A DNA stretch of 53,530 bases from Anaeromusa acidaminophila DSM 3853 (GTDB lineage Bacteria; Bacillota; Negativicutes; Anaeromusales; Anaeromusaceae), in assembly GCF_000374545.1 (NCBI RefSeq), contig NZ_KB894604.1:1-53530 (forward strand), written 5' to 3'. The notes below the pieces were generated by a model. The model saw only the letters and a program-made list of their open reading frames with translations. It searched no databases and was not told where the DNA came from. Made by a program: the position numbers and the translations under genes. Positions 20,393 to 29,766 of this stretch are shown here, piece after piece; the stretch's first letter is position 1, and the number at the start of each line of letters is the position of its first letter.

Positions 20393-21397
20393 TTGGCCGG
20401 GCCTGATGTATTATCCCAGTCCGAAATTGATGAGTTGCTAAATGCGCTTTCGGCAGGAGAAGTATCTGCGGAAGACATAAAAGGCGAACAGGAACAACGC
20501 AAAATCAAGGTCTATGATTTTAAGCGGCCGGATAAGTTTTCGAAGGATCAGATTCGTACGCTGTATATGCTACATGAGAACTTCGCTAGGTTTTTCAACA
20601 CCTACTTATCGGCTAACTTGAGAGCACTGGTGCATATTAACGTAGCCTCAGTGGACCAAATGACCTATGAAGAATTTGTTCGTTCTTTGCCTAATCCCAG
20701 CGTTATCGGTATTTTCCAAATGCGTCCTTTAAAAGGGAATGTTATTTTGGAAATGAATCCCAATATAGTGTTTGCCGTAATTGACCGGTTGTTCGGCGGT
20801 ATAGGTTTGCCTTTGTCCAAACCGCGTGCATTGACAGACATTGAAGAGTCGATTGTTCGCCGGGTTATGAGTAAAGCGCTTGATTCTCTGCAAGATGCTT
20901 GGAAACAGGTGCTGGTTGTGGATCCTAAATTGGAGATGATTGAAACCAATCCCCAGTTTACCCAAATTGTGCCGCCGAATGATATGGTAGTGCTTATTAC
21001 GTTGCAATGTAAAATCGGACAGGCCGAAGGATTAGTCAATATCTGTATTCCTTATTTAGTACTGGAACCTATTATGTCGAAGCTAACCACTACTTTTTGG
21101 GTAGCTTCATCCATGAGCAAGCAGTCGTTGCCAGAGCATGTGAGCGCTATACAGCAAAAGTTGGAAAAGGCGCGTATACCTCTTGTTGTCGAAATGGGGC
21201 GTACGCAGATTAATGTATATGATCTGCTTGGTTTGTCTCAAGGAGATGTGTTGCGGCTGGATAGCCAGGTTGAGCATGAGTTGAAAATTACAGTTGGCCA
21301 CCGGGAGAAATTTTTATGCAAACCAGGTTTAGTTAACCGGAAGATGGCCGTACAGATTACGAAAATACTAAATGAAGGAGATACGGAAAATGAGTGA
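20393..21397 (+). CDS. fliM: Flagellar motor switch protein FliM
   Basis: FliM is the middle part of the C-ring and binds phosphorylated CheY to reverse the motor. The N-terminal CheY-binding peptide VLSQSEIDELLNAL is present. It is followed by YDFKRPDKFSKDQIRTL and the CheC-like middle domain with VDQMTYEEFVRSLPNPS and FAVIDRLFGG. A C-terminal SpoA domain reads VEMGRTQINVYDLLGLSQGDVL. The 334 residues match the family. The start is TTG 20393 after AAGGGAGGGAG. The stop overlaps the fliY start. Confidence 0.96.
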   Translation: MAGPDVLSQSEIDELLNALSAGEVSAEDIKGEQEQRKIKVYDFKRPDKFSKDQIRTLYMLHENFARFFNTYLSANLRALVHINVASVDQMTYEEFVRSLPNPSVIGIFQMRPLKGNVILEMNPNIVFAVIDRLFGGIGLPLSKPRALTDIEESIVRRVMSKALDSLQDAWKQVLVVDPKLEMIETNPQFTQIVPPNDMVVLITLQCKIGQAEGLVNICIPYLVLEPIMSKLTTTFWVASSMSKQSLPEHVSAIQQKLEKARIPLVVEMGRTQINVYDLLGLSQGDVLRLDSQVEHELKITVGHREKFLCKPGLVNRKMAVQITKILNEGDTENE

Positions 21398-24572: not shown

Positions 24573-25355
24573 ATGAATGAACTTTTTGCGGTTTTTCAAG
24601 GACATATTGGATTTTTTTTATTGATGTTGGTACGTATGTCAGGAGTTTTTATTACAGCTCCTTTTTTTGGCAGTCGTAATGTTTCAGGACGTATTCGCAT
24701 GTCACTGGCTTTTATGTGCGCTTTACTGCTTTTTCCTATGATCTTTCGGCCTGAATTGGCAATTCCGGATACGTTATTTCCTTTTGCTTTTATGGTAATT
24801 AAGGAACTGCTTGTAGGGTTAGTCATGGGATTTACGGCGTATTTGTTTTTTACTGCCGTGCAAATGGCGGGACAATTGTTGGATATGCAAATCGGCTTTG
24901 GCATTGTTAGCGTCTTTGATCCGCAATCAGGGCAACAAGTGCCGCTTTTAGGAAATTTTAAATACATACTGGCCATGCTGGTATTTTTGACGACCAACAG
25001 TCATCATTTTTTATTTTCTGGTTTAGTTAACAGCTATCAACTGATACCGGTTGGTGAAGTTGATTTTTCTCCGCAAAGTGCAGAAGTATTTGTCGATATG
25101 GTGGGCGGTATATTTGTAATTGCGATGAAAATCTCTATTCCTGTGCTGAGTGCATTGCTGCTTTCCGATATTGCTCTGGGCATTTTGGCGCGGACCATGC
25201 CGCAAATGAATATTTTCGTGGTGGGTATTCCCGTGAAAATTTTTGTAGGCTTGTTTGTTCTAACTCTTGTAATTCCTTTTTATATTTTGTTTTTGGAAGT
25301 GGCGTTTAATGGAATGTATCAGGAAATGTACAGAATGCTGCTCATGTTGCGCTGA
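24573..25355 (+). CDS. fliR: Flagellar export gate protein FliR
   Basis: Third subunit of the export channel, one copy per gate. The 260 residues form about six membrane helices. They include MLVRMSGVFITAPFFGSRNV, VRMSLAFM-like residues, KELLVGLVMGFTAYLFFTAV and DMQIGFGIVSVFDPQSGQQV. The end reads PQMNIFVVGIPVKIFVGLFV, where family members are strongly conserved. The last 47 bases also carry the apparent start of flhB in another frame, an unusually long overlap for this operon. Confidence 0.95.
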   Translation: MNELFAVFQGHIGFFLLMLVRMSGVFITAPFFGSRNVSGRIRMSLAFMCALLLFPMIFRPELAIPDTLFPFAFMVIKELLVGLVMGFTAYLFFTAVQMAGQLLDMQIGFGIVSVFDPQSGQQVPLLGNFKYILAMLVFLTTNSHHFLFSGLVNSYQLIPVGEVDFSPQSAEVFVDMVGGIFVIAMKISIPVLSALLLSDIALGILARTMPQMNIFVVGIPVKIFVGLFVLTLVIPFYILFLEVAFNGMYQEMYRMLLMLR

Positions 25356-26457
25356 ATTTGAGCAGAGAGAGCAAGCCTCTTGGGTATTTGACCTCCAACG
25401 ATTTAATGAGGAAAAAACAGAGGACGCTACCCCTAAACGGCTGCAGGAAGCGCGTGAAAAAGGTCAAGTTGCCAAAAGCATGGAAATTAATGCAACCGTC
25501 AGTATAATTTTGGCTTTTTTTGTGCTGCAAGTGTTAGGCAGTTTTATTTTTGAAGAATTAGGACTGTTTATGCGTCATGTTTATAGCAGCTTTTCTACGA
25601 ATGATTTGACGTTTGTTGACTTGCAGCTTTTATTTGTAGAAGCAATTGTTGTCATGTTGAAAACAGCTTTTCCGATTATGGCGACGTTGGCTTTTTCAGC
25701 GGTGATTATGAATTTATTACAAGTCGGTTTTATTTTTAGTATGGAGCCCTTAATGCCCAGCTTAGAAAAACTAGATCCTATTGCAGGGGCTGGAAGGTTG
25801 ATTTCTAAGCGTTCACTGGTAGAATTAGCGAAGTCCTTATTTAAGGTATGTGTAGTAGGCTTTTTTATCTATCGAGTTATTAAACAAAATCTTCTGAATA
25901 ATGCTATGCTGATTAATGCGGAGTTATGGGCGTCTTTAAAAGCTACTTCTTCAATGATTTTAGGTATGGTTTTTGAAATTTGCGCCGTTATGTTGATTTT
26001 AGCAGCATTAGATTTTTTGTATCAAAACTGGGAATATCGTCAGAATTTAAAAATGAGTAAACATGACGTGAAACAAGAATTTAAGCAAAGTGAGGGTGAT
26101 CCTTTAATCAAAGGAAAGATTAAAGAACGGCAGCGCGCTATGGCAATGCAGCGGATGATGCAGGAAGTGCCAAAAGCTGATGTTGTTATAACCAATCCTA
26201 CTCATTTTGCAGTGGCTTTAAAATATGATAATAAGGTGATGGCGGCGCCGCAAATTGTGGCTAAAGGTCAGGATTTTGTAGCCTTGCGCATCAAAGACAT
26301 TGCGAAAGAACATAAAGTAGTTATAGTAGAAAACAAACCGCTGGCAAGAGCGTTGTACTCTTCTACCGAAGTGGGGGACACAGTGCCTGCGGAATTATAT
26401 AAATCAGTAGCTGAAGTTTTGGCGTATGTATACCGTCTGAAACGGCGTTTGTCGTAA
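25309..26457 (+). CDS. flhB: Flagellar export protein FlhB, unusual start inside fliR
   Basis: FlhB is the export-gate switch; self-cleavage at NPTH changes substrate class from hook to filament. LQRFNEEKTEDATPKRLQEA opens the conserved part. Four membrane helices follow, then a cytoplasmic domain with the cleavage site NPTH at about residues 296-299 and a normal end. Between the fliR stop and the conserved part there is no ATG, GTG or TTG in frame. The only canonical start is ATG 25309, inside fliR, with a partial ribosome site GGAAGTGG at 25295-25302. That start adds about 15 residues with six cysteines (3, 7, 10, 11, 13, 14). A non-canonical start, ribosomal frameshift from fliR, or a sequencing error are alternatives. 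Confidence 0.9.
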   Translation: MECIRKCTECCSCCAEFEQREQASWVFDLQRFNEEKTEDATPKRLQEAREKGQVAKSMEINATVSIILAFFVLQVLGSFIFEELGLFMRHVYSSFSTNDLTFVDLQLLFVEAIVVMLKTAFPIMATLAFSAVIMNLLQVGFIFSMEPLMPSLEKLDPIAGAGRLISKRSLVELAKSLFKVCVVGFFIYRVIKQNLLNNAMLINAELWASLKATSSMILGMVFEICAVMLILAALDFLYQNWEYRQNLKMSKHDVKQEFKQSEGDPLIKGKIKERQRAMAMQRMMQEVPKADVVITNPTHFAVALKYDNKVMAAPQIVAKGQDFVALRIKDIAKEHKVVIVENKPLARALYSSTEVGDTVPAELYKSVAEVLAYVYRLKRRLS

Positions 26458-28563: not shown

Positions 28564-29766
28564 TTGAGAGTACGAATTTTTACCGGTCAATCGGTACAAG
28601 AAGCAATGAATAAGGTGAAATTGGAATTGGGCAGGGAAGCTGTGATTCTGCATACCCGTCGGTTCAAGACCGGAGGCATGTTGGGACTTTTCGGTAATGA
28701 ACGGGTAGAAGTCATGGCTGCCGTGGATGATGCTCTTTTAGAAACGCCGGCTGTCAAAACAGCTGTTGCTCCAGCACTGCCGCCTGTTGCTGCTCCAGTG
28801 CCTGTTGCAGCAGCGGCTATGCCTTCTCTGCAAGAGCCTCAAGAGACCATTGCGTCATTGAGCATGCCCATGACACCTGTAAAAGCGGCAGAGCCGGAAT
28901 GGAAGCAAGAGCTGGCAGAGATGCGTTCCTTGCTGGAACGCGCTTTGCATGAATCGAAACAAGAGGTAGATGCCGTTGCTTCAGCGGCAGTAGAGAAGTT
29001 ATTAGAAGCGGATGTCTTGAAACCGGTAGCGGAAAGCTTGGTTCGGCAAGATCCCATTTTATATCAATGGAAAGGGACTCTTACAGAGCCAGCCTTTACA
29101 GAGCGACTGGAACGGTTGGTTGAGCAAGGCTTGGGAAAGGTATCGGGAGTTGCTCTAAACGGCAGCGCTCCTCATGTTGTAGCGTTGCTGGGCCCGACCG
29201 GTGTTGGTAAAACAACGACAATTGCAAAGCTGGCGGCTTATTTTTCATTGCAAAAGGGGATGCGTGTTTCTCTGATTACTGCGGATACGTATCGTATTTC
29301 TGCAGTAGAGCAGTTGAAGACATATGCAGAAATAATGGGTTTGCAATTAGAAATTGTTTATGCGCCGCAGGAGCTTGCAAAAGCTTTGGCGAAATGTAAG
29401 GGAAGTCAATTAGTATTGCTGGATACGGCAGGACGCAGTCCCAAGAATCAAGAGCAGTTGGAGGAATTACAATTACTTTTGAGCCAGGTACCGCAGGCGG
29501 AAAAGCATTTGGTGCTGAGTCTGACTACTTGTAATCGAGATGCGCTGGAAATTGCTAAGCGTTTTTCAGTTTGCGCACCGGATAAAGTGTTGTTTACTAA
29601 ATTAGATGAAGCAAGTCGGTGCGGTGTCATTTTAAATGTATTGCAGCAATTTCCTATGAAATTATCCTATGTAACCAATGGACAGAATGTTCCGGATGAT
29701 TTGCAAATTGTATCGCCTGCTTGGCTGGCGAAAGAGTTGCTTAGGGGCGATGACGAGCATGTATGA
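28564..29766 (+). CDS. flhF: Flagellar placement GTPase FlhF
   Basis: FlhF is an SRP-type GTPase that sets where flagella are built. The 400 residues start MRVRIFTGQSVQEAMNKVKL, with a variable Ala/Pro-rich linker. The NG domain has the P-loop GPTGVGKTT at about 210-218, DTYRISAVEQLKTYAEIM, LLDTAGRSPKN and FTKLDEASRCG. The start is TTG 28564, two bases after the flhA stop. FlhG (next gene) is its ATPase-activating partner. The end overlaps flhG. Confidence 0.95.
   Translation: MRVRIFTGQSVQEAMNKVKLELGREAVILHTRRFKTGGMLGLFGNERVEVMAAVDDALLETPAVKTAVAPALPPVAAPVPVAAAAMPSLQEPQETIASLSMPMTPVKAAEPEWKQELAEMRSLLERALHESKQEVDAVASAAVEKLLEADVLKPVAESLVRQDPILYQWKGTLTEPAFTERLERLVEQGLGKVSGVALNGSAPHVVALLGPTGVGKTTTIAKLAAYFSLQKGMRVSLITADTYRISAVEQLKTYAEIMGLQLEIVYAPQELAKALAKCKGSQLVLLDTAGRSPKNQEQLEELQLLLSQVPQAEKHLVLSLTTCNRDALEIAKRFSVCAPDKVLFTKLDEASRCGVILNVLQQFPMKLSYVTNGQNVPDDLQIVSPAWLAKELLRGDDEHV

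Follow-up and report, generated by a model that had tools for sequence, protein, structure and literature searches.

Where does translation of flhB begin when no ordinary start codon follows its upstream neighbor fliR? The two genes belong to a flagellar operon with the order fliP, fliQ, fliR, flhB, flhA, flhF, flhG in the window (the whole 53,530-nucleotide stretch of DNA analysed here), in which fliR and flhB were identified by family-model scans and the other genes were named from their translations. The flhB frame is +1 relative to fliR and open from upstream, with its open reading frame (ORF) listed as 25309-26457. The product scores above the cut-offs of both TIGR00328 (413.5 bits; cut-off, 349.25) and PF01312 (433.2 bits; cut-off, 24.4) and carries the NPTH autocleavage motif at ORF residues 296-299, which is invariant in the flhB alignment; it is the single full-length flhB in the genome. 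The locus comprises the following features:

24573..25355, + strand: fliR, FliR export-gate protein, 260 aa (Pfam PF01311, E 4.2e-73; TIGR01400, above cut-off), ending in the stop codon TGA at 25353-25355
25295..25299, + strand: GGAAG, Shine-Dalgarno (SD)-like element of flhB, spelled by the FliR Leu-Glu-Val codons
25309..25311, + strand: ATG, predicted start of flhB, made from the FliR Asn codon AAT plus G (AAT GGA)
25309..25355, + strand: fliR/flhB overlap, 47 nt, +1 phase, encoding FliR ...NGMYQEMYRMLLMLR and FlhB MECIRKCTECCSCCAE
25309..26457, + strand: flhB, 382 aa, export-gate/substrate-switch protein (PF01312, E 8.9e-130, from residue 34)
25354..25386, + strand: in-frame FlhB linker between the overlap and the FDLQRF motif, fast evolving in the comparison with congeners

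The flhB start codon in this genome

The first-pass annotation had claimed that the flhB frame lacks ATG, GTG and TTG after the fliR stop, and both the sequence and the list of ORFs confirm this. Between the stop and the conserved part of FlhB (FDLQRFNEEKTE, FDLQRFNEEKTEDATPKR), the frame holds none of these codons and no CTG, ATT, ATC or ATA either; the codons from 25354 to the FDLQRF motif read GAA TTT GAG CAG AGA GAG CAA GCC TCT TGG GTA TTT GAC. As was also claimed, the ATG at 25309, inside fliR, is the sole canonical start ahead of the conserved part, giving a product that begins MECIRKCTECCSCCA (MECIRKCTECCSCCAEFEQREQASWVFDLQRF), and the only other near-start in the flhB frame, ATC 25318, likewise lies within fliR. 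The ribosome site, described earlier as partial, is of moderate strength: GGAAG with a spacer of 9 nt pairs with the anti-SD at -4.0 kcal/mol, compared with -5.0 kcal/mol for fliQ and -8.4 kcal/mol for fliR in the same operon.

The flhB N termini of close relatives, whose alignment the first-pass annotation had proposed, agree with this assignment. In three other species of the genus, the match extends over FlhB residues 1-382, overlap included, at 92-94% identity, with frame relation and ATG unchanged and no ordinary start (ATG, GTG or TTG) after fliR. Among these congeners, the seven fliR codons just before and into the start show no nonsynonymous and three synonymous differences in 42 codon comparisons; fliR farther upstream shows 163 synonymous differences per 600. 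Just past the fliR stop, 26 of the 48 codon comparisons in the linker are nonsynonymous, and the corresponding figure for the next FlhB stretch is 41 of 600. The overlap peptide and the linker evolve fast.

Conservation and displacement of the start across the class

The wider sample comprised 88 nonredundant loci of one class, 87 of which entered the statistics on start codon, SD and openness; the class is apparently Negativicutes, judging by the nearest named relatives (Selenomonas, Anaerovibrio and other Selenomonadaceae). All 88 loci have flhB in the fliR +1 frame. In 70 loci of other groups, flhB is split 21/24/25 among the three frames relative to fliR, and in 20 further genomes of the same phylum an flhB start at or after the fliR stop is the rule. 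The overlap in the class measures 44-59 nt (47 nt in 51 of 87 loci), and in 77 of 87 the stretch from the fliR stop to the FDLQ motif contains no ATG, GTG or TTG. At the overlap, the FliR consensus reads ...L(E/D)V-x-F-(N/S)-(G/E)-M-Y..., and the flhB start consists of the last two bases of a FliR Asn, Ser, Asp, His or Gly codon and the next G, so that a T is needed at a wobble position where FliR does not require it.

Against a synonymous null built from the codon usage of each genome's own fliR and flhB, ATG or GTG at the homologous position is found in 86 of 87 loci, with 55.5 expected (log10 P -18.9; this and the other P values are nominal, as the sequences are related). The FliR Asn codon is AAT in 65 of 65 cases (45 expected) and the Ser codon AGT in 10 of 10 (2.5 expected). 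The flhB SD inside fliR averages -6.66 kcal/mol, compared with -3.67 kcal/mol in synonymous recodings (z -12.4; 87 loci), while the +1 frame is stop-free through the overlap in 86 of 87 loci (49.3 expected). Clustering at 80% identity gives agreeing results, with ATG or GTG in 65 of 66 loci (42.8 expected) and a z of -12.0 for SD strength. Start, SD and openness all exceed their synonymous nulls; by this measure, both frames are under initiation or coding constraint inside the overlap. These patterns point to clear selection on the flhB start inside fliR and to a real, class-wide same-strand overlap of 44-59 nt that serves to start FlhB. The sole class locus without a start codon at the conserved column is L156 (genome G024), which has GAA GGA there; it keeps a strong SD (GGAGGTCGG) with only TTG codons farther on, and its flhB must use a start other than the conserved column.

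Lineages with a displaced start serve as natural experiments. In three loci (L179, L199 and L204) of genus g65, which belongs to a Selenomonadaceae-like family (f11), the fliR tail with its SD and ATG is repeated past the fliR stop (TTGGACGTGATGTTTAATGAAATGTACGG in L179), and the duplicated block provides the SD and ATG of flhB outside fliR. The alignment scores of these copies are 43, 36.5 and 45.5, respectively, with shuffle maxima of 15.5 or less. Five more genomes of g65 also start flhB after fliR; in L192 and L197, the fliR stop is followed by a fliR-tail-like block (GGAGGTGGTGCTTAGTGGAGTATGA), which gives no significant alignment to their own fliR tails. Relative to fliR, flhB in the eight displaced-start loci of g65 occupies any of frames 0, 1 and 2, and the fliR +1 frame of most displaced-start loci is interrupted by a stop or no longer holds the start (AAC, AGC). 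Where the start has moved elsewhere, neither the frame lock nor the constraint on the fliR wobble position persists, which is what a functional start inside fliR would predict. These lineages, along with the class-wide frame, start codon, SD and openness, strongly support the earlier suggestion that flhB starts at ATG 25309 and that the end of fliR encodes two proteins.

Alternative explanations and the cysteine-rich extension

The invariable +1 frame of flhB and the openness of the overlap would also fit a programmed +1 frameshift near the end of fliR that yields a FliR-FlhB fusion, an alternative put forward in the first-pass annotation. It would be the counterpart of the natural in-frame fusions of some clostridia, and fused FliR/FlhB proteins do exist (NCBIfam NF009411; PMC7064499). 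However, a frameshift would need neither a start codon nor an SD, yet both are under selection. A conserved slippery site or stop context was looked for and not found, the 87 loci having 72 different last-codon/stop contexts with all three stop codons, and the displaced-start genomes have lost the frame relation and carry a copied SD-and-start block ahead of flhB. An in-frame fusion occurs in none of the 88 class loci, and instead of a single polypeptide reaching the NF009411 cut-off of 739, the locus gives separate hits in two frames, at 384.5 and 160.1 bits. We consider such a frameshift highly improbable.

The other alternative raised there, translation of FlhB from a non-canonical codon such as ATC 25318 or one past the fliR stop, deserves equally little credence: ATC 25318 does lie in the flhB frame, but it is not conserved class-wide, whereas ATG or GTG at the 25309 position is, and no ATH or CTG is available past the stop. 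A base-call error had been named as the outcome that would overturn the internal start, and the genome is indeed a draft of 61 contigs, in which a sequencing or assembly error near 25309-25360 might have removed an ordinary start after fliR. We found no evidence supporting such an error; the arrangement is the same in the three congeneric genomes, which likewise have no downstream starts, and the frame relation is that of the whole class, making this explanation extremely improbable.

Starting at ATG 25309, the N-terminal extension of FlhB has Cys at positions 3, 7, 10, 11, 13 and 14. The first-pass annotation had listed these positions correctly, but its suggestion that the cluster is noteworthy is not borne out, the Cys content not being above chance. 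The end of FliR is Met-rich, and an ATG followed by T or C becomes TGT or TGC, that is, Cys, when read one base on; the cluster arises because FliR Met codons are read in the +1 frame (ATG Y to TGY). This genome has 6 Cys, with 4.9 expected from synonymous recoding, and the three congeners have 4-5. Six Cys among the first 14 residues, and 4-6 across the four congeners, might be taken for a functional metal- or redox-binding motif. Against this, the Cys positions are out-of-frame FliR Met codons, genomes outside the genus mostly have 0-2 Cys, and the total over 87 loci is 128, below the 152 expected from synonymous FliR recoding. No sign of a metal site emerged from the Cys counts across the class or the evolution of the overlap peptide, and we regard a functional motif as very unlikely; the cluster is a tolerated by-product of the fliR sequence.

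Proposed initiation inside fliR and comparison with known overlaps

Taken as a whole, the explanation that we consider very likely is that FlhB synthesis begins at ATG 25309 in the fliR +1 frame, guided by an SD in the Leu-Glu-Val codons, so that the last 47 nt of fliR would code for the ends of two proteins and the overlap peptide would be a by-product. The arrangement would have been fixed before the class diversified, and it may have been retained because relocating the start out of fliR demands an entire new initiation site.

Published termination-reinitiation coupling is optimal at -4 to +3 nt, and a systematic E. coli study detected none at -25 nt (PMC12548453). As the flhB start lies 44 nt before the fliR stop, de novo initiation of ribosomes at the internal SD, either independently or helped by unfolding during fliR translation, is more likely than re-initiation following that stop, and a backward-scanning mechanism seems unlikely. 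Passing fliR ribosomes may help or limit flhB initiation. The resulting FlhB yield would be low and linked to fliR, which would suit an export gate with a single copy each of FliR and FlhB. The two proteins sit together in the gate (PMC7064499), and a fixed FliR:FlhB ratio could plausibly explain the overlap. It is tempting to speculate further that the overlap is a dosage device in which fliR ribosomes clear the flhB start and keep FlhB rare and proportional to FliR, 1:1 as in the fused clostridial genes, a reading that we regard as doubtful. A hairpin hiding the flhB start was also considered and rejected: none is evident over the start (fold z 0.52), and the 60 nt around it are no more structured than synonymous recodings (33/66).

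In a survey of 338 genomes, no same-strand overlap reaching 60 bp proved real, and the longest that its authors could identify as real was holD-rimI of Enterobacteria, at up to 56 bp (Palleja et al. 2008; PMC2478687). Like the fliR-flhB overlap of 44-59 nt, holD-rimI is of similar size and retained among related species; it involves other genes, whereas fliR-flhB is, in the loci sampled here, conserved throughout a class, and selection on its start and SD was measured. The clostridial FliR-FlhB fusion (NF009411; PMC7064499) ties together the same two neighboring genes, but here they encode two separate proteins in overlapping frames. Short coupled overlaps of -4/-1 nt (PMC12548453, PMC10666635) similarly join same-strand genes for partners of one complex, but the flhB start lies 44 nt before the fliR stop. 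The fliR-flhB overlap is ordinary in kind; what is unusual is its length and how deeply it is conserved. We found no earlier description of it in the open-access literature, subscription papers being outside the scope of our search. The case adds a well-supported long same-strand bacterial overlap, near the upper limit that surveys accept as real, which a class conserves and for which lineages with relaxed constraint act as natural controls. It also fixes the FlhB start for the annotation of genomes of the class and offers a clean test case for how a start site within a translated gene may govern the proportion of two export-gate subunits; the view of how the flagellum works is unchanged.

Three further observations concern neighboring or related genes. 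A second, short FlhB-like gene (G000:C5:90758-91003; L002) matches FlhB in its C-terminal cytoplasmic part alone, at 44% identity, and a similar short gene is present in most of the flhB-bearing class genomes searched. Within the window, the flhG ORF as listed shares 89 nt (29678-29766) with flhF, and no SD precedes its first ATG; the true flhG start is probably a later ATG, at about 29750. Likewise, the first ATG of a fliY-like ORF, at 21372, lacks an SD (0.1 kcal/mol) and overlaps a fliM-like gene, and this ORF probably starts at a later ATG.
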